Assembly (NCBI RefSeq): GCF_004153545.1
Contig: NZ_SDVA01000005.1
Location: 62,001-126,000 of the forward strand
DNA: 64,000 nucleotides
Direction of reading: 5' to 3'
Origin: Serinicoccus sediminis
GTDB taxonomy: Bacteria; Actinomycetota; Actinomycetes; Actinomycetales; Dermatophilaceae
Position 1 is the first letter of the stretch; each line of letters begins with the position of its first letter. Positions 8,518 to 56,037 of the stretch are shown one piece after another. The position numbers and the translations under genes were made by a program. The notes under the pieces are model-generated. The model was not told the origin of the DNA. It did not search any database and saw only the letters and a list, made by a program, of their open reading frames with translations.

Positions 8518-9915
8518 GTGATCTCCCCGCGCACGCCCTCCGGTGTCCTCGAGCTGCTGCCGCCCGAGCAGGTCGCCTTCCAGAGGATGCTGGACGCGAT
8601 CCGCTCCGGCTACGAGCGCTTCGGCTTCCTGCCCATCGAGACGCCCGTCTTCGAGCGCTCGGACGTGCTGCTCACCAAGACCGGCGGCGAGACCGAGCGG
8701 CAGGTCTACTTCGTGCAGTCGACGGGGGCGCTGGACAAGGCCCGGGCCGACGGCGGCGACGACACGCTGCCCGACCTGGCGCTGCGCTTCGACCTCACGG
8801 TGCCGCTCGCGCGCTACGTCGCGGAGCACGAGCACCAGCTGACCTTCCCGTTCCGCCGCTACCAGATGCAGCGCGTCTACCGCGGCGAGCGTCCGCAGCG
8901 GGGTCGCTTCCGCGAGTTCTACCAGTGCGACGTCGACATCATCGGCTCGGGCGAGCTCTCGGTCCGCCACGACGCCGAGGCGCCGGCCATCATCAACGCC
9001 ATCTTCACCGACCTGGCCATCGGCACCTTCACCATCCAGGTCAACAACCGCCGGCTGCTGCGCGGCTTCTACGAGGACCTCGGCATCACCGACGCCGAGG
9101 TCCAGGCCGCCGTGCTGCGGGAGGTCGACAAGCTCGACAAGCGGGGCGCCGACTACCTGCGGACCACCCTGACCGGGGAGGGGTTCGGGCTGTCCGAGGA
9201 GGTCGTCGAGCGCATCCTGGCCTTCGTGCAGACCCGCTCCAGCGGCCACGACGACGCCCTGGCCCGGTTGGCCGAGGTCGAGGCGGGGTCGACCGGCAGC
9301 AGCGCGCTCGCCGAGGGGGTGGCCGAGCTGCGCGAGGTGCTGTCGCTGGTGCGCGCCCTCGGGGTGCCGGAAGACAACTACTGCCTCAACTTCTCCATCG
9401 CGCGCGGCCTGGACTACTACACCGGGACCGTCTACGAGACGACCCTGGACGAGCACCCCGAGCTCGGCTCGATCTGCTCCGGCGGGCGCTACGACGACCT
9501 GGCCGGGCAGTACACGAGGTCGCGCCTGCCCGGGGTCGGCATCTCCATCGGCCTGTCCCGGCTGTTCTGGCAGCTGCGCGAGGCCGGGCTCGTCGACGCC
9601 TCGGCCGGACAGTCGACCGTGCAGGTCCTCGTGCCCCAGGTCGACCCCGCCCTGCTCGACGACCAGCTCGCGCTGGCCTCCCAGCTGCGGCACGGCGGCA
9701 TCAACACCGAGGCGGTCCTCGACGGCGGCAAGCTCGGCAAGCAGCTGCGGTATGCCGACCGCGCCGGGATCCGCTTCGTCGCCATCCTGGGCCCGCAGGA
9801 GGCCGCCGACGGCACGGTCACCCTCAAGGACCTGCGCCGCCAGGACCAGTTCACCGTGCCGCGCGACGAGGTCGTCAGCGCGCTGCGGGTCGAGCTGGCC
9901 CAGCCGCTGGTCTGA
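8518..9915 (+). CDS. hisS: Histidyl-tRNA synthetase
   Basis: Class II aminoacyl-tRNA synthetase charging tRNA-His, 465 residues. Visible landmarks are class II motif 2 ([20 protein letters not shown] then [12 protein letters not shown]), the histidine-binding segment [26 protein letters not shown], and motif 3 in [15 protein letters not shown]. The C-terminal part is the anticodon-binding domain. The GTG start follows a TAGACT -10 directly. The 3' flank is a 22-bp-period repeat array shared with the convergent cyclophilin gene. Confidence 0.97.
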
Positions 9916-9929
9916 GGCGGGCCGGGCGC

Positions 9930-10035
9930 GCGTCCGGTGTGCGCTGGAAAGGCGTCCGGTAGGCGCTGGACACGCGTCCGGTGTGTCCTGGACGCGCGTC
10001 CTGTGCGTGCTGGACGCGCGTCCTGTGCAGGGGAG
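9930..10035. repeat. 22-bp-period tandem array, locus 1 (about 5 copies)
   Basis: Copies begin at 9930, 9952, 9974, 9996 and 10018, an exact 22-bp spacing. Each starts with GCGTCC[G/T]GTG and continues with a more variable half often ending GCTGGAC. The array fills the gap between the convergent hisS and cyclophilin genes. The same unit, in the opposite orientation, forms the array at 19350, and both orientations occur at 38252. Confidence 0.85.
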
Positions 10036-17887: not shown

Positions 17888-18633
17888 GCAGCTCGCCCCC
17901 CGCCCCCGACGACCGAGCGCCGCGCATGGTTGACCCTGACCCCGACCGAGCGCCGCGAATGGTTGGCCCTGAGGACGACCGAGCGTCGCGCATGGTTGGC
18001 CCCGAGGACGACCGAGCGTCGCGCATGGTGGGTTTCGAGGTCGCGGACGTGGACTTCGCCAAGACCGACGGCCTGGTGCCCGGCGTGGTCCAACACGCGC
18101 GCACGGGGCAGGTGCTCATGGTCGGCTTCCTCGACGAGCAGGCGCTCCGGGTGACGCTGGACACCGGGCTCGCGACCTTCCACAGCCGCAGCCGCGGGAC
18201 GCTGTGGACCAAGGGGGAGACGAGCGGCAACGTGCTGCGCGTCGAGGCGGTCGAGCTCGACTGCGACCGCGACACCCTGCTGCTGCACGCCATCCCCACC
18301 GGACCGACGTGCCACACCGGTGAGCAGACGTGCTTCGACCCCGGCGCGCGGCCCGGGTCCTTCGTGCACGCGCTGGACGAGGTCGTGCGGGGACGGCAGC
18401 AGGAGCTGCCCGAGGGGTCCTACACCACGACGCTGTTCACCGGCGGCGTGCGGCGGATCGCGCAGAAGGTGGGCGAGGAGGGCGTGGAGACCGCGCTGGC
18501 CGCGGTGGCGCAGGACGACGAGGCGCTGCTGGGGGAGTCGGCCGACCTCGTCTACCACCTGCTCGTGCTGCTGCGCTCGCGCGACCTGGGCCTCACCGAC
18601 GTCGAGCGGGTGCTGCGGCGGCGGCACGGCTGA
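17884..18633 (+). CDS. hisI: Bifunctional PR-AMP cyclohydrolase / PR-ATP pyrophosphohydrolase (HisIE)
   Basis: Fused enzyme doing steps 2 and 3 of histidine synthesis, 249 residues from the overlapping GTG. HisI part: [43 protein letters not shown] and [11 protein letters not shown] (zinc/magnesium ligands). HisE part: [20 protein letters not shown] and [12 protein letters not shown]. The fusion and these motifs are enterobacterial; actinobacteria usually keep hisI and hisE apart. The first ~50 residues are four copies of an 11-residue repeat (DRA[P/S]RMVGPED), absent from the family. The ATG at 18025 gives a normal-length enzyme and may be the real or a second start. Confidence 0.9.
17911..18042 (+). 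repeat. 33-bp in-frame tandem repeat, four copies
   Basis: Copies begin at 17911, 17944, 17977 and 18010, exactly 33 bp apart. Each starts GACCGAGCG[C/T]CGCG and contains ATGGT, so each copy carries an in-frame ATG. Copies 2 and 3 are nearly identical, which indicates recent duplication. The array sits at the hisF/hisIE junction, like mycobacterial MIRU elements that span start-stop overlaps (comparison is inference). Confidence 0.85.
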
Positions 18634-19305: not shown

Positions 19306-19349
19306 GCCCGCAGTCTCCTCCAGGCGGCACCGTGCGCGCGGGAGGCTTG

Positions 19350-19448
19350 CACCGGACGCGCGCTCCGCGCACACCGGACGCGTCCTCTGCCCACACCGGA
19401 CGCGTCCTCCGCACGCACCGGACGCGTCCTCCGCGCGCACCGGGCGGC
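19350..19448. repeat. 22-bp-period tandem array, locus 2 (about 5 copies)
   Basis: Copies begin at 19350, 19372, 19394, 19416 and 19438, again exactly 22 bp apart. Each starts CACCGGACGCG and is the reverse complement of the unit at 9930. The array lies in a divergent promoter region between the two-TM gene and xerD; both genes' putative -10 elements lie outside it. Confidence 0.85.
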
Positions 19449-30835: not shown

Positions 30836-30840
30836 CCCAC

Positions 30841-30884
30841 GACCGGAGCCCGTGACCACCACGAGGTGGTCACGGGCTCCGGTC
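30841..30884. terminator. 20-bp perfect hairpin between convergent genes
   Basis: Arms 30841-30860 and 30865-30884 are perfectly complementary around the loop ACGA; a partial third copy (CACGGGCTC) follows at 30890. It lies between the convergent transporter and aminotransferase genes and should terminate in both directions, without a T-tract. Confidence 0.85.
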
Positions 30885-30953
30885 ATGCTCACGGGCTCTG
30901 GTCGCGCCCGATCCCGCGTCCTTCCGCTGCTTCCGGGCCGCGGACGGGGGGTG

Positions 30954-35354: not shown

Positions 35355-38264
35355 ATGGAGTACGACGTCACCCGGCTCGCCCGGACCCTCGACGCGCAGC
35401 TGCGGGGGACGGTCGGTGCGGACGCGCTGTCGCGGGCGCTCTACGCGACCGACGCGTCGAACTACCGCGTCGTGCCGGACGTCGTCGTCGTGCCGCGGGA
35501 CGAGCAGGACCTGGTGACGGCCCTGGCTCTCGCGCGGGACGCGGGGGCGCCGGTGGCGCTGCGCGGCGGCGGCACCTCGATGGCCGGGAACGCGCTCGGC
35601 GGGGTCGTCGTCGACGTCCGGCGACACCTCGACCGCGTGCTCGACATCGACCCGGTCGCCCGGACGGCGACCGTCCAGCCCGGGGTCGTGCTCAGCCACC
35701 TCGTGGCGGCGACGAAGCAGCACGGCCTGACCTTCGGCGCCGACCCCTCGTCGGCGAGCCGCTGCACCCTCGGCGGGATGATCGCCAACAACGCGTGCGG
35801 CGCGCACTCGGTGGCGTGGGGCACCACGGCCGACAACGTGCGCAGCCTGCGGGTGCTCACGGCGGCGGGGGAGCAGGCCCGGGTGGACGCGCTCGGGCCG
35901 GGCGGTGCACCGGGCGACGCGCCCGACCCGGCGCTGACCGGGGTGCACGCCGAGCTCGCTCGCATCGGCCGCGACAACGCGACGCTCATCGGCCGCCGGT
36001 TCGGCACCTTCTCCCGGCAGATCTCCGGGTACGCGCTGCAGCACCTGCACCCCGACCGCGGCGTCGACCTCGCCCGGCTGCTCTGCGGGAGCGAGGGCAC
36101 CCTCGCCACGACCCTCGAGGCGACCGTGTCGTTGGCGCAGACCCCCCCGTCCGTGGTGCTGCTGACCCTGGGCTTCCCGGACGCCGTGTCGGCCGCGCGC
36201 AGCGTGCCGACCGTGCTGCCGCACGAGCCGCTGACGATGGAGTCGATCAACGCCACGCTGGTCGAGCGGCTGCCGGACGACACCCGCCGGGCCGCGCAGG
36301 CGGCCGGGCTGCCACCGGGACGGATGTGGCTGCTGGTGGAGATCGCCGGGGAGGACGAGGCGCAGGCGCGCGTCCGCGCGGCGGCCGTGGCCGAGGCGGT
36401 GCGCGACGGCATACCCGGGAGCAGCGCGGCGGTCGTCACCGACCCGGGTGCGCAGGCCGTGCTGTGGCGGTGCCGGCGGGACGGCACCGGGCTGGCGACG
36501 CGGCGGGCCGACGGCGCCGAGGCGTGGGCCGGGTGGGAGGACGCCGCGGTGCCGCCCGAGCGGCTCGGCGACTACCTCACCTCGCTGGACGAGCTCATGG
36601 CGCGCTACGGCTACTCGGGCGCGTCCTACGGGCACTTCGGCGAGGGATGCATGCACCTGCGGATCGACTTCGACCTGGTCACCGACGCGGGGGTGCGCGA
36701 CTACCGCGCCTTCCTCGAGCAGGCCACCGACCTGGTCGTCTCGCTCGGCGGGTCGGTCTCGGGCGAGCACGGCGACGGCCGGGCGCGGGGCGGGCTGCTG
36801 GAGCGGATGTACGGCGCCGACACCACCGCCATCTTCGCCGAGGTCAAGCGGGCGTGGGACCCGCAGGGGCGGCTCAACCCCGGCGTCATCGTCGACCCGC
36901 CGCCGGTGGACGCCGCGCTGCGCCAGCACGGCCACGCGCAGGGCTTCCCGCAGCGCACCACGCTGGCCTTCTCCGCGGACGCGGGCAGCTTCGCCCAGGC
37001 GCAGCGGCGGTGCGTCGGGGTGGGCAAGTGCGTGCAGACCTCGGGCGGGGTGATGTGCCCGAGCTACCAGGTGACAAGCGAGGAGAAGGACTCCACCCGC
37101 GGGCGCGCCCGGGTGCTCTTCGAGATGATGGAGGGCGACGTCATCACGGACGGCTGGCGGGCCCAGGAGGTCCACGACGCGCTCGACCTGTGCCTGTCGT
37201 GCAAGGGGTGCGTGGGCGACTGCCCGGTCAACGTCGACATGGCGTCCTACAAGGCGGAGTTCACCCACCAGCACTACCAGGGCCGGCCCTGGGCCCGCCC
37301 GCGCTCGCACTGGTCGATGGGCTGGCTGCCGGCCCTGGCCCGCGGCGCCGCGCTGGCCCCACGCGTGACGAACGCGCTGACCGGCTCCCGGCTGGCCGGG
37401 CCGCTCAAGCGGGCCGGTGGCATCGCCGCCGACCGCGAGCTGCCGACCTTCGCCCGCCAGACGTTCACCTCGTGGTTCGCGCGCTCGCACACGCCCGCAC
37501 GGGGCGAGGGGCGCACCCCGGTGCTGCTGTGGCCGGACACCTTCACCACCTTCCTCGCGCCCGAGGTGGGCCGGGCCGCGGTCGCGGTGCTCGAGGACGC
37601 CGGGATGGAGGTGCACCTGCCGACCGGCCCGGTCTGCTGCGGGCTCACCTGGGTCTCCACCGGCCAGCTGGGGGTGGCGCAGCGGGTGCTGCGGCGCTCG
37701 CTGGCGACCATCGGCCCGGCGCTGCGGGCGGGGGCGACCGTCGTCGGGCTGGAGCCGAGCTGCACGGCGGTGTTCCGGCACGAGGCCGTCGACCTGCTGC
37801 CGGACGACCCGCTGGCCACGTTGGCCAAGGGGCAGGTGCGGACCCTCGCGGAGACGGTCGCCGAGGTCGCGCCCGACTGGGAGCCGCCGCAGGTGGACCG
37901 GGACGCGCTGGTCCAGGTGCACTGCCACCAGCACGCGGTGACGGGGTTCGACGCCGACCGGGCCCTCATGGCCCGCGCCGGCATCCGGGCGCAGGTGCCG
38001 GACTCGGGATGCTGCGGGCTGGCCGGCAACTTCGGCTTCGAGGACGGCCACGAGCAGCTGTCCCGGCAGATCGGGGAGCGGGTGCTGGCGCCGGCGGTCC
38101 GGGCGGCGGACCCGGCCACGGAAGTCCTGGCCGACGGCTTCTCCTGCCGCACCCAGATCGCCGACCTCACCGCGCGCCGCGGCCGCCACCTCGCCGAGCT
38201 CCTGGCCGACGGCATACCCCGCACCCAGGCGGCGGGCGCCGGGTCCGCACAGGACGTGCGGTAG
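35355..38264 (+). CDS. Fused FAD-linked oxidase / Fe-S dehydrogenase (GlcD-GlcF or YdiJ type)
   Basis: A 969-residue oxidoreductase. The N-terminal VAO-type FAD domain has VALRGGGTSMAGNALGGVVV and SRCTLGGMIANNACGAHSV; the FAD-oxidase C domain follows (SGEHGDGRARGGLLERM). Two 4Fe-4S motifs come next (CVGVGKCVQ with a later CPSYQ near 553, and CLSCKGCVGDCPVN near 612), then two CCG-type segments (VCCGLTW and GCCGLAGNFG). Such enzymes oxidise D-2-hydroxyacids (D-lactate, glycolate, D-2-hydroxyglutarate) into the respiratory chain. ATG with GGAGG site. Its last codons are part of a 22-bp repeat array. Confidence 0.9.
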   Translation: MEYDVTRLARTLDAQLRGTVGADALSRALYATDASNYRVVPDVVVVPRDEQDLVTALALARDAGAPVALRGGGTSMAGNALGGVVVDVRRHLDRVLDIDPVARTATVQPGVVLSHLVAATKQHGLTFGADPSSASRCTLGGMIANNACGAHSVAWGTTADNVRSLRVLTAAGEQARVDALGPGGAPGDAPDPALTGVHAELARIGRDNATLIGRRFGTFSRQISGYALQHLHPDRGVDLARLLCGSEGTLATTLEATVSLAQTPPSVVLLTLGFPDAVSAARSVPTVLPHEPLTMESINATLVERLPDDTRRAAQAAGLPPGRMWLLVEIAGEDEAQARVRAAAVAEAVRDGIPGSSAAVVTDPGAQAVLWRCRRDGTGLATRRADGAEAWAGWEDAAVPPERLGDYLTSLDELMARYGYSGASYGHFGEGCMHLRIDFDLVTDAGVRDYRAFLEQATDLVVSLGGSVSGEHGDGRARGGLLERMYGADTTAIFAEVKRAWDPQGRLNPGVIVDPPPVDAALRQHGHAQGFPQRTTLAFSADAGSFAQAQRRCVGVGKCVQTSGGVMCPSYQVTSEEKDSTRGRARVLFEMMEGDVITDGWRAQEVHDALDLCLSCKGCVGDCPVNVDMASYKAEFTHQHYQGRPWARPRSHWSMGWLPALARGAALAPRVTNALTGSRLAGPLKRAGGIAADRELPTFARQTFTSWFARSHTPARGEGRTPVLLWPDTFTTFLAPEVGRAAVAVLEDAGMEVHLPTGPVCCGLTWVSTGQLGVAQRVLRRSLATIGPALRAGATVVGLEPSCTAVFRHEAVDLLPDDPLATLAKGQVRTLAETVAEVAPDWEPPQVDRDALVQVHCHQHAVTGFDADRALMARAGIRAQVPDSGCCGLAGNFGFEDGHEQLSRQIGERVLAPAVRAADPATEVLADGFSCRTQIADLTARRGRHLAELLADGIPRTQAAGAGSAQDVR

Positions 38265-38489
38265 GCATACACAGGACGCGCCGTCATCGCGCTCCGGACG
38301 CGTGTTCGCGCTACACAGGACGCGCCTTCCGCTAGACGTGTCGTGTCTGCGCCCCGCGCACGTCCTGTGGGTGCCGACGACGTGTTCGGTGTGCGCTGGT
38401 GACGTGTTCTGTGAGTGCCGACGACGCGTCCTGTGAGTGCCGACGACGTGTTCGGTGTGCGCTGGCGACGTGTTCTGTGCGGCTAGCGC
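38252..38489. repeat. 22-bp-period tandem arrays, locus 3, in opposite orientations
   Basis: Four copies (GGACG[C/T]G at 38252, 38274, 38296 and 38318) run in one orientation; the first lies in the last codons of the dehydrogenase gene. After a ~40-base gap, copies in the other orientation start at 38360, 38380, 38402, 38424, 38446 and 38468 (22-bp steps except the first, 20). Consensus of the conserved half is [A/G]CG[C/T]GT[C/T]C[G/T]GTG-like. The array ends at the 3' end of the convergent M20 gene. Confidence 0.85.
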
Positions 38490-39703
38490 GGGCCCGGGGC
38501 GAGGAGGTGCAGGACGGTGCGCGCGTAGCCACGGGCGGCGAGGAGCAAATCGTCGACCGCCACCGACTCGTCCGGGCGGTGGGCCTGCTCGTTGACCGAG
38601 CCGGGGCCCTGCACCACGACCGGTATGCCCCACGCCTGCGCCACGAAGCCGCCGTCGCACGCGGCGGTCCACCCCTGCAACGGCACCGGCCCGCGCCCGG
38701 CCCCGCTCATCGCCGCGTCCACGGTCCGCACGAACGGCTCCTCCGGGGCGGTCTCGAAGCCCGGCATGTCCATGGGGGAGGACACCGACCAGCTCAGCCC
38801 TCGCGCCTCCAGGTCGAGGGCGGTGAGCCTCTCCCGCACGGCGTCGACGACCGCGTCCATCGGCTCGCCCGGCAGCAGCCGTCGGTCCACCTCGACCCGG
38901 CAGAGGTCGGGCACGGCCGATCCGGACGTCCCGCCCTGGATGACGCCGACGTTGACCGTGGCCGGTCCGACGAGCGGATGCGCCCTGGCCGCCAGCTCCT
39001 CGTGCCAGCGGTCCAGGTCGGCGACGACGAGCGCGGCGCCGCTGATGGCGTTGCGCCCGTCCGCGGGCCGTCCCGCGTGCGCGGCGACCCCGCGCACCTC
39101 CACGTGCAGGTATGACGCACCCCGCGCGGCCACCACCGTCGCCAGGTCGGTCGGCTCGGCCACGACGCACCCCAGCAGGTCGGGTGCCGCCTGCTCGACG
39201 TAGCGGCGGATGCCGATGCCGTTCTGCTCCTCGTCGCACAGCGCGTCCAGCAGGACCGGCCCGGTGAGCCGCACCCCGGCCTCGCGCACGGCGGCCATCG
39301 CCAGCAGCACCGCCGCGAGCCCGCCCTTCATGTCCGCGCTCCCGCGGCCCACGAGGCGCCCGTCGGCGAGCGTCGCGGCATACGGGTCGACGGTCCAGTC
39401 CTCGAGCGGTCCCGGTGGGACCACGTCGGTGTGCCCCAGGAAGAGGAGCCCGGGCCCGTCGCCGCCGTCCAGGCGCACGCCGACGTTCGGCCGACCGGGC
39501 TCGACCTCCTGCACCTCGGCGGTCAGCCCGAGCCCGCCGGCCAGGCCGGCCAGCACCTGCGCCGTGGCGGCCTCCTCGCCGGGCGGGTTGGCGCCCGGTG
39601 CGCGGACGAGCTCCTGCGCCAGGGGCACGAGCCGCTCGGCGGTGAGGAGCGCGAGCACCCGCTGCCCGGCCGCGGTGCGCGCGGTCACCTCCCCGCCGGT
39701 CAT
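38483..39703 (-). CDS. M20 family metallopeptidase/deacylase (ArgE/DapE-like)
   Basis: Zinc hydrolase of 406 residues that removes an acyl group or cleaves a dipeptide. Motifs: LLFLGHTDVVPPG (His-x-Asp), VGRGSADMKGGLAAVL (bridging Asp), LLDALCDEEQNGIG (Glu-Glu), VVAEPTDLATV and a C-terminal histidine in GSVNEQAHRPDESV. The dimerisation domain includes GVAAHAGRPADGRNAI. It is the last gene of a four-gene coupled operon with both neighbours overlapped by 4 bp. In ectoine catabolism deacetylation is done by a different family (DoeB/EutE), so this could be a substitute; speculative. Confidence 0.88.
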   Translation of the reverse strand: MTGGEVTARTAAGQRVLALLTAERLVPLAQELVRAPGANPPGEEAATAQVLAGLAGGLGLTAEVQEVEPGRPNVGVRLDGGDGPGLLFLGHTDVVPPGPLEDWTVDPYAATLADGRLVGRGSADMKGGLAAVLLAMAAVREAGVRLTGPVLLDALCDEEQNGIGIRRYVEQAAPDLLGCVVAEPTDLATVVAARGASYLHVEVRGVAAHAGRPADGRNAISGAALVVADLDRWHEELAARAHPLVGPATVNVGVIQGGTSGSAVPDLCRVEVDRRLLPGEPMDAVVDAVRERLTALDLEARGLSWSVSSPMDMPGFETAPEEPFVRTVDAAMSGAGRGPVPLQGWTAACDGGFVAQAWGIPVVVQGPGSVNEQAHRPDESVAVDDLLLAARGYARTVLHLLAPGPR

Positions 39704-52943: not shown

Positions 52944-52959
52944 GAGGCTGCTGACGACG

Positions 52960-53063
52960 TCGCGTGGGAGAGTCCTCTCCGCACTGCGGTGAGGCGCCGA
53001 AGGGGCATACTCCCCACCAAGCTCTCAGGCGCCGGGACCACGCGGAGCAGGCGACTCTGGAAC
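52960..53063 (+). ncRNA. Glycine riboswitch aptamer
   Basis: Conserved blocks appear in order: GTGGGAGAG, GGCGCCGAAGGGGCA, AAGCTCTCAGGCGCC, GGACCACGCGGAG and GACTCTGGA. These match the glycine riboswitch aptamer and its ligand-binding core. It directly precedes gcvP, whose product consumes glycine. Only one clear aptamer is seen; many glycine riboswitches are tandem. Confidence 0.85.
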
Positions 53064-53133: not shown

Positions 53134-56037
53134 ATGAGCCACCACTCGCCCGACTTCGTCGCCCGTCACGTCGGTCCCCGCCCCGAGGACGTCGAGCGCA
53201 TGCTCGAGGTCGTCGGCTACGACAGCCTCCAGGCCCTGGTCGAGGCGGCCACCCCCGAGGGGATCCGCGGGGCGGCGCCCCTCGCGATCGAGGCGGCACC
53301 CAGCGAGCAGGCGGTCATCGCCGAGCTGCGCGACCTGGCGAGCCGGAACACCGTGGTCACCCCGATGATCGGCCTCGGCTACTACGGCACCCAGACCCCG
53401 CCGGTGGTCCTGCGCAACATCCTGGAGAACCCGGCGTGGTACACCGCCTACACCCCGTACCAGCCGGAGATCTCCCAGGGCCGGCTGGAGGCGCTGCTCA
53501 ACTTCCAGACCGTGGTCACCGACCTGACCGGCCTGGCCGTGGCCGGCGCGTCGATGCTCGACGAGGGCACGGCCGCCGCCGAGGCCATGGCGCTCATGCG
53601 CCGGTCCAGCAAGGCGGCCAAGGACGCGGTGCTGCTGCTCGACGAGCACGTCTTCCCGCAGACCGAGGCGGTGGTCCGGGCCCGCGCCGAGGCCATCGGG
53701 TGGACGGTCGTCACGGCCGACGTGACCGGCATCGAGGACGTCGAGGGCCTACGCTCGGCGGCCGGCGGCCAGGAGGTCTTCGGGCTGCTGGTGCAGTACC
53801 CCGGCGCCGACGGCCAGGTCCGGGACGTCGCGGCCGCGGCCGCAGCGGCGCACGAGGCCGGGGCGCTGGTCACCGCGGCCGCCGACCTGCTCGCCCTCAC
53901 CCTGCTGGCGCCGCCCTCCCGCTGGGGCGCCGACGTGGCCGTCGGCAGCACCCAGCGGCTCGGGGTGCCGCTGGGCTTCGGTGGACCGCACGCCGGCTAC
54001 CTCGCCGTCCGGGAGGGACTGGAGCGCACGCTGCCGGGTCGCCTCGTCGGGGTGTCCAAGGACGTCGACGGCAAGCCGGCCTACCGCCTCGCCCTGCAGA
54101 CCCGTGAGCAGCACATCCGGCGGGAGAAGGCCACGTCCAACATCTGCACCGCGCAGGTGCTCCTCGCCGTCATGGCGTCGATGTATGCGGTGTGGCACGG
54201 CCCGGAGGGGCTGCGGCGGATCGCGCGACGCGTGCACGCCCAGGCGACCGCCCTCGCCGGGGTGCTGACCGAGGCCGGCCACGAGCTCGCCGGGGACCGC
54301 TTCTTCGACACCCTGCAGGTGCGCGTCCCGGGCCGGGCCACGGACGTGCTCGCGGCCGCGCTGGAGCGCGGCATCAACCTGTGGCGGGTCGACGACGACA
54401 CCGTGCTGCTGTCCGTCGACGAGCTCACCACGACCGACGACCTGCGCGCGGTGGCCGAGGCCTTCGGCGCCGACCCGGGGTCGCTGCCGGACGGTGCCGG
54501 CTTCGACGACGACGCCGACGACGCCGACGAGCAGCTGTTCGGCGACCTCTCCCGGACCGGGGACGAGGCATACCTCACCCACCCGGTGTTCTCCCGCCAC
54601 CGCAGCGAGACCGCCCTGCTGCGCTACCTGCGCACGCTCTCGGACAAGGACTACGCCCTGGACCGGGGCATGATCCCGCTGGGCTCGTGCACCATGAAGC
54701 TCAACCCGACCACGGCCATGGAGTCCGTCACCTGGCCGGAGTTCGGCTCGCTGCACCCCTTCGCCCCGGCCGACCAGAGCGCGGGCTACCGCGAGCTCAT
54801 CGACCAGCTGTGCGGCTGGCTGGAGGAGATCACCGGCTACGACCGGGTGTCCCTGCAGCCCAACGCCGGCGCCCAGGGCGAGTTCGCCGGGCTGCTCGCC
54901 ATCCGGCAGTACCACCTGGCCAACGGCGACGACCAGCGCACGGTCTGCCTCATCCCGGCCAGCGCGCACGGCACCAACGCGGCCAGCGCGGTCATGGCCG
55001 GCCTCAAGGTGGTGGTCGTCAAGAGCACCGACACCGGCGAGATCGACCTCGAGGACCTGCGCGCCAAGATCGAGACCCACCGGGACCAGCTCGCCGGCAT
55101 CATGGTGACCTACCCCTCGACGCACGGCGTCTACGAGGACACCATCACCGAGCTCTGCGAGCTGGTGCACGAGGCGGGGGGCCAGGTCTACGTCGACGGG
55201 GCCAACCTCAACGCGCTCCTGGGCATCGCCAAGCCGGGCGAGTTCGGCGGCGACGTCAGCCACCTCAACCTGCACAAGACCTTCACCATCCCGCACGGCG
55301 GCGGCGGTCCCGGGGTCGGTCCGGTCGCGGTGCGCGAGCACCTGGCGCCCTACCTGCCCAACCACCCCTTCGACGCCCAGGCCGGCCCGGAGAGCGGCCC
55401 CGGGCCGATCTCCGCGGCGCCCTTCGGCTCGGCCGGCATCCTGCAGATCCCGTGGGCCTACATCCGGCTCATGGGTGGCGAGGGGCTCACCCGGTCCGGG
55501 CAGGTGGCGGTGCTGTCGGCCAACTACGTCGCCCGACGGCTCGACGAGCACTTCCCCGTGCTCTACACCGGCGACCACGGGCTGGTGGCGCACGAGTGCA
55601 TCCTCGACCTGCGCGGGCTGACCAAGTCCACCGGCGTCACCGTCGACGACGTCGCCAAGCGGCTCATCGACTACGGCTTCCACGCCCCCACGATGTCCTT
55701 CCCCGTCGCGGGCACCCTCATGGTGGAGCCGACCGAGTCCGAGGACCTCGCCGAGATCGACCGCTTCGTCGACGCCATGATCGCCATCCGGCGCGAGATG
55801 GACGAGGCGGCGCGGTCCGAGGGCGGCGTCGAGGCCAGCGCGCTGCGCGGGGCCCCGCACACCGCGCTGTCGCTGGCGGGGGAGTGGGACGCCTCCTACG
55901 ACCGGATGACCGCCGCCTACCCGGAGGGCGTCGACCCCGACCGCAAGTACTGGCCGCCGGTGCGCCGCATCGACGGCGTCTACGGCGACCGCAACCTGGT
56001 GTGCTCGTGCCCGCCGCCGGAGGACTTCGAGGCCTGA
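53134..56037 (+). CDS. gcvP: Glycine dehydrogenase (decarboxylating), P protein
   Basis: PLP enzyme that decarboxylates glycine and passes the aminomethyl group to GcvH, 967 residues (fused two-half P protein). N-terminal [60 protein letters not shown], and the PLP lysine in [20 protein letters not shown] (near 715). The ATG at 53134 has AAGGAG 11 bases upstream at the end of the riboswitch leader; a GTG at 53095 in the leader is rejected. Glycine should switch expression on. Confidence 0.96.

Follow-up and report, generated by a model that had tools for sequence, protein, structure and literature searches.

The subject of this analysis is a pair of inverted 22-bp tandem arrays lying between two convergent genes of the 3.55-Mb Serinicoccus sediminis genome (hereafter G000), within a 64,000-nucleotide stretch (G000:C55:62001-126000) that we refer to as the window. 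The two genes encode a multidomain dehydrogenase and a peptidase of the M20 family, and the arrays fill the space between their 3' ends. Genes here and elsewhere were called with our own codon-usage script rather than a published caller, and L-numbers denote stretches of the genomes compared. The features at the locus are as follows.

35355..38264, + strand: FAD-linked oxidase / 4Fe-4S / CCG-domain dehydrogenase (Pfam FAD_binding_4, FAD-oxidase_C, Fer4_8, CCG; gene call)
38248..38335, + strand: left half-array, four 22-bp units, sense CACMGGACGCG, cores at 38248, 38270, 38292 and 38314
38336..38358, no strand: centre between the inverted half-arrays, with similar sequence in L010, L034 and L139
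38359..38479, - strand: right half-array, six inverted units at 22-bp steps, four of the six with the core variant CACMGAACACG
38486..38500, - strand: probable degenerate unit within the M20 coding end, recognised by comparison (APGPR here, APDAR in L010 and L139)
38483..39703, - strand: Peptidase M20 family gene, convergent with the dehydrogenase gene (Pfam Peptidase_M20, M20_dimer; gene call)

A sequence-only reading had described four copies facing one way and six the other, joining the ends of two convergent genes, and the unit coordinates confirm this arrangement. As it had also proposed, the first copy forms the end of the dehydrogenase gene, whose final four codons and TAG stop (38262-38264) lie inside the first repeat unit to give the tail ...SAQDVR*, and on the other side the final inverted core stops 3 nt before the M20 stop codon (38483-38485). 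The gap of about 40 bases that it placed between the two halves is present, but measures 34 nt from core to core. Both half-arrays are detected by Tandem Repeats Finder (TRF). The word GACGYGTYCNGTG, at up to one mismatch, matches the window 13 times against 5.1 expected, a count reached by 0 of 100 shuffles, whereas a looser 14-mer at three mismatches shows no excess there (57 matches, 63.7 expected).

The target array belongs to a family of tandem arrays that is specific to the clade, dispersed through the genome and situated mostly at gene 3' ends. The unit of 22 bp comprises an 11-bp core, CACMGGACGCG, and the more weakly conserved positions T15, C16, G18 and C21 (consensus CACMGGACGCGYSSTCNGNMCR). 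A two-unit pattern matches the G000 genome 263 times at up to three mismatches (97 for the reversed control) and 198 times at up to one mismatch (6 for the control). At the stricter threshold matches occur in 12 of the 58 genomes searched, with a strong excess over control in G000, G012, G028 and G029 (119-198 matches each) and 21 matches against none in each of G004 and G030; there is no excess in G002 (18 matches, 16 in the control) or G025 (4 and 4), and G007, G016, G021 and G035 have a single match each. Shorter words give the same picture among 31 same-genus (Serinicoccus-like) genomes. The stop-fused 17-mer CACMGGACGCGCGSTAG, at up to one mismatch, is found 22-31 times in each of G000, G012, G028, G029 and G030 (control 0-1), and in the remaining 26 genomes it has 1-2 matches in four, as rare as the control, and none in 22. 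Likewise, the 13-mer CGCACCGGACGCG has 83, 103, 113, 79 and 35 matches in those five genomes, with 0-4 apiece in the rest. The family is abundant, therefore, in five of the 31 genomes, and a sixth, G004, has a variant unit, CACCGGACGCGCGTTCCTGCCA, at the ends of several genes. A viral source for the arrays was rejected, the two-unit pattern having no exact match in IMG/VR, and an apparent chromosome-wide strand bias of the G000 matches was dismissed on the full listing (50 forward, 48 reverse). Among the papers listed by searches of the open-licence PMC literature, none appeared to describe the family.

Placement relative to genes was assessed in 41 stretches of G000, including the window, and 34 stretches of G012, all picked for pattern matches. 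The G000 loci were drawn from the first 100 of the 263 matches, so the G000 array counts are lower bounds, and the two sets are non-independent, most G012 arrays being orthologous to G000 arrays (34 pairs, with G000 array L097 paired twice). The stretches contain at least 54 arrays in G000 and 44 in G012. Among the 48 array-bearing gaps of G000, 23 are convergent, 22 tandem and three divergent; convergent gaps are thereby strongly over-represented in comparison with 29 of 191 baseline gene pairs (p 6e-6), the baseline being the window and eight 20-kb stretches selected for the absence of listed arrays. Convergent gaps with arrays have a median length of 150 bp (23 gaps), and those without one of 33 bp (27 gaps). 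Two further arrays of the family lie in the window.

9929..10027, - strand: array of the 22-bp family, five units, in a convergent gap between genes ending at 9915 (+) and 10046 (-)
19350..19443, + strand: array of the 22-bp family, four clear units and a weak fifth at 19328, placed between divergent genes (three such cases in the G000 set)

Many arrays are common to the two species at the same places and keep a preferred phase with stop codons. Of the 39 G000 arrays no farther than 60 nt from a co-oriented stop, 24 place that stop 3-5 nt (modulo 22) ahead of a core, a range of phase picked after the data were seen (p 5e-12). In nine genes the overlap with the first unit is exactly 17 nt and the stop is TAG in every case; their proteins end in SAQDVR, SAPDAR, TPAPDAR, PAQDAR, AAPDAR, TAPDAP, VAPDAR, GAPDAR and PAPDAS. 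Five of these proteins, judged by reading their full sequences rather than by a family search, look mutually unrelated. The arrays have supplied stop codons and C-terminal tails to genes.

Comparison of relatives shows how this came about at the target locus. The dehydrogenase is 90-91% identical, over the best segment, to its counterparts in the Serinicoccus relatives L009, L010 and L034. In the outgroup S. kebangsaanensis (L013) the gap between the two genes is 12 bp long and has no core, and the flanking C-termini are ...GIPRRGAP* and ...RMLG*. In the own genome, L010, L034 and L139 (from G012) the gaps are array-bearing and 208-329 bp long (218 bp in the own genome); the tails include, at one gene end, SAQDVR* and SAPGPR* and, at the other, LLAPGPR*, LLAPDAR* and LLSPART*. 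The own C-termini are ...GIPRTQAAGAGSAQDVR for the dehydrogenase and ...LLAPGPR for the M20 protein, the latter LLAPDAR* in L010 and L139; the repeat contributes only the last few codons, and the rest of the longer dehydrogenase tail is non-repeat sequence. Given the short gap and the different C-termini of this array-free outgroup, the array rewrote both gene ends. The state of L013 thus supports the earlier suggestion that an insertion took the place of the original 3' ends, and among the orthologs compared identical C-termini without an array were not seen. The more distant L033 and L011 lack an array, but their gene order differs and their gaps are not comparable.

A much reduced version of the locus occurs in L009, identical there to the G030 stretch L163, in which a 42-bp gap holds one left and one right unit that together form a near-perfect hairpin. 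This single-unit form was considered as the ancestral state and, for this locus, rejected. In a tree of 10.5 kb of DNA the own sequence is the earliest branch, followed by L010 and lastly by L009 together with L034 and G012 (100/100, 99.7/99), and single-protein trees are compatible with this order at weaker support (87/98, 84/99). As L009 nests inside the array-bearing species, and as the interior of the array is common to the basal own sequence and the others, the L009 gap is best read as the contraction of a longer array, the array being ancestral within its clade. The 20 G030 stretches read, picked for matches, mostly have one or two units, and 18 of them map to the neighbourhoods of G000 array stretches.

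Such changes of length are what would be expected of neutral or selfish minisatellites, in which a seed spread to gene ends in the clade ancestor, grew and shrank by slippage, and was merely tolerated there. Copy number is unequal in 25 of the 34 orthologous G000-G012 array pairs, and tolerance alone would produce a bias towards convergent gaps. At L010 6974-7230 the left half-array has expanded as a higher-order repeat of 44 bp in which two units alternate; this and the one- or two-unit loci of G030 fit the explanation. The pattern of conservation within the unit is harder to reconcile with it. For the 49 G000 arrays with three or more units, cores are 0.93 identical within an array and 0.94 from locus to locus, and spacers 0.70 and 0.57 respectively, although the core figures are inflated because stretches and most arrays were located via the core. 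Between the 34 orthologous pairs consensus cores are 0.952 identical and spacers 0.738 (non-orthologous spacers 0.541); under the same inflation, cores at 95% have been kept better than spacers at 74% and than most of the surrounding DNA, which is 84.6-95.5% identical over matched G012 stretches. When arrays are instead cut by the TRF period, core identity exceeds spacer identity in 40 of 49 G000 arrays (five equal, four opposite, p 7e-7) and in 30 of 44 G012 arrays (seven equal, seven opposite, p 3e-4).

The intergenic arrays of this period listed by TRF also have the core. A core-like site (up to two mismatches) is present in every TRF-listed intergenic period-22 array (four in the window, 42 at G000 loci, 40 at G012 loci), and a coreless one was found in none of these three sets. 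Among 14 intergenic repeats with other periods, from the window and eight C16 stretches, none has a core-like site, and TRF lists no period-22 intergenic array in the C16 stretches or in 79 kb of G030. G030 still has cores at all three window loci. We regard a neutral or selfish origin as rather unlikely. One coreless repeat, of period 44, was seen in L148.

The large stem that the inverted half-arrays could form in RNA was proposed at the outset as a bidirectional terminator, acting in both transcripts. In the own genome the stem is real, the target region folding strongly on both strands (z -4.84 on the plus strand, -2.74 on the minus strand). Of the 12 inverted sites folded, 10 reach z below -3 on one strand or both; the target locus, taken from five genomes, accounts for five of the 12, and the values are rough, with 40 to 60-odd shuffles per sequence at most. 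L009 reaches about -6 on both strands. However, the two exceptions among the 12 are themselves target orthologs, L139 and L034, whose z values on the two strands fall in the range -1.46 to +0.16. L010 folds better than shuffles on one strand only, its minus-strand value of -0.88 being unremarkable. An inverted pair within 150 bp is present in just five of the 48 array-bearing gaps of G000, the two members of a sixth (L096) being 502 bp apart, and a perfect single-core hairpin is rare, occurring in eight of the 31 genomes, at one or two places each. Single half-arrays fold little better than shuffles (sense mean z -0.62, n=49, 14% below -2, and -0.68, n=40, 20% below -2; antisense means -0.64 and -0.47). 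A U-tract terminator, that is, a GC hairpin followed by a T-run, was found nowhere in 38000-38700 (shuffles mean 0.1), and in Rfam 15 no family scores above its gathering score at the array, the window matches being a tRNA and a glycine riboswitch elsewhere. Of the initial proposal, then, the stem stands for the own genome and its conservation does not: the hairpin is real but there is no conserved design at the locus, and we consider it unlikely that the arrays work as RNA-level terminators. In L096 (3127-3627) the roughly 500 bp between the two half-arrays contain no called gene and, by reading, look like a decayed acetyltransferase gene.

A second RNA-level possibility is a Rho-loading or other single-strand element, provided by a C-rich sense stretch straight after the stop codon. 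Arrays do follow a co-oriented stop in 44 of 54 cases in G000 and 33 of 44 in G012, although in convergent gaps either orientation counts as co-oriented and only tandem gaps inform on direction. The C/G ratio of the 88 nt past the stop is 1.24 for 38 array-following genes and 1.06 for 110 other ends, a small excess, and the minimum free energy of the same stretch is not significantly weaker (-0.415 kcal/mol/nt after array-gene stops, -0.447 at the other ends, p 0.15). The near-invariant core is also unlike the pattern of rut sites. We consider such a single-strand role quite improbable.

The conserved core suggests a working sequence. Some divergent and reverse-oriented arrays have been retained in two species, which fits a role in DNA better than one in RNA. 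The arrays share the traits of protein-binding-site arrays, namely a constrained site, a freer spacer and helical spacing, with the caveat that they were selected by core. The explanation that we favour, at a little short of an even chance, is that they are binding sites for a protein, in phase with the helix, by which transcript ends are marked or insulated. The excess in convergent gaps, the preferred phase with stop codons and the weak folding of single half-arrays also count for it. The core would be constrained through its recognition on DNA by a putative protein; the 22-bp period, about two helical turns, would align the sites of each array along almost the same face of the helix; and protein bound there in a row could serve to mark, block or insulate the transcript ends of neighbouring, often convergent, genes. 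The hairpin at the target locus would be a by-product of two arrays meeting tail to tail.

A second dispersed family leans in the same direction. It has a period of 32-33 bp and the core ACCGRGCGYCGCGAATGGTTG, is represented in the window at 17908-18029, and has 144 matches in G000 (control 0), 13-142 in each of eight other same-genus genomes and one in G004. Eight of its 10 distinct arrays in the stretches read follow a co-oriented stop, and two of these eight overlap called genes. The occurrence at gene ends of two different cores, spaced at about two and about three helical turns, favours DNA binding.

Several observations weigh against phased binding sites. The binding protein itself is putative. 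Long arrays are evidently not needed for whatever the core does, given the one or two units usual in G030, and 27 of the 29 baseline convergent gaps have no array at all. The orientation bias in the informative tandem gaps is only slight in G000 (16 arrays with the genes, seven against, p 0.09), with 11 and seven in G012. With 14-20% of half-arrays at sense z below -2, folding may make some contribution. Selection by core inflates core identity; in the comparison by TRF period the phase was chosen by core match, and arrays so cut do not all carry the core well (mean above four mismatches in one of 49 in G000 and five of 44 in G012).

Comparison with known systems yields partial likenesses. The mycobacterial interspersed repetitive units (MIRU) are actinobacterial tandem repeats that overlap stop codons and are oriented with genes, with a unit of 46-101 bp and a location mainly between the genes of operons. 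Compared by description only, they resemble the 22-bp arrays in stop overlap and orientation and differ in unit length and operon placement. In Neisseria and Pasteurellaceae, paired DNA uptake sequences act as terminators, a short common word standing in inverted pairs between convergent genes. The inverted pairing recalls L009; however, uptake sequences occur as many single copies, many of them genic, whereas all 11 exact ACNGGACGCG sites in the window lie in arrays and none stands singly in a gene. The Sal-box arrays bound by TTF-I in eukaryotes are oriented tandem short sites just after ribosomal DNA genes, and their likeness to the 22-bp arrays is an analogy of working only.

Close in placement are the G-rich heptamer tandem repeats of Xanthomonas and Nostoc, which are described as under-represented between divergent genes, within 50 bp of stops, on the sense strand, in some cases overlapping the stop, and preferentially of four units (PMC4692102). 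The two systems are alike in being tandem in gaps and in placement, sense bias and stop overlap; they differ in that the heptamers are a 7-nt G-quadruplex-forming unit (PMC4692102), while the unit here is of 22 nt with a conserved core and a drifting spacer. Repetitive extragenic palindromic sequences (REPs), according to the main text of a paper that there makes no mention of Actinobacteria, lie between convergent or same-direction genes, often less than 20 bp from the 3' end (PMC3733652). The 23 convergent, 22 tandem and three divergent gaps found here agree with that preference, and some units have GTAG or CTAG beside the core, like GTAG-REPs as described in the same text (PMC3733652). Mobilisation of palindromic repeats by a REP-associated tyrosine transposase (RAYT) was nevertheless rejected, and we give it scarcely any credence: Y1_Tnp (PF01797), the RAYT-family domain, was found in none of the 31 genus genomes, in a search whose control was positive in 5 of 14. 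The unit, too, is not the stem-loop tagged GTAG or CGTC of REPs; it runs head to tail and is not clearly palindromic, CACMGGACGCGYSSTCNGNMCR by reading having only a partial dyad and GTAG occurring only in some units.

The arrays matter because dozens of gene ends carry one conserved word and the unit has recoded protein C-termini, and because the 12-bp, 42-bp and 208-329-bp versions of one gap in relatives amount to natural replicates. To our knowledge, how transcripts end without U-tract hairpins in GC-rich actinobacteria is unsettled, and these replicates make the question of transcript ends testable. A bolder proposal, which we hold to be doubtful, is that a clade-specific DNA-binding protein coats the phased 22-bp arrays at dozens of gene ends, with perhaps a related protein on the 32-33-bp arrays, forming an oriented roadblock that would end transcription without hairpins or U-tracts; the arrays would at the same time donate stops and the shared tail A-P/Q-D-A-R to several proteins.

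A few further features were seen along the way. In G004 (L181-L188) several CACCGGACGCGCGTTCCTGCCA units are followed by TTNTCCACAGG, with an inverted CCTGTGG copy in L182 and L187. This part resembles a DnaA box and may represent a related palindromic element. In the window, a long near-perfect GC hairpin without a T-run lies at 30836-30900, after a plus-strand gene in an array-free convergent gap, and the glycine riboswitch (57.5 bits) occupies 52955-53050, just upstream of a large plus-strand gene at 53134.

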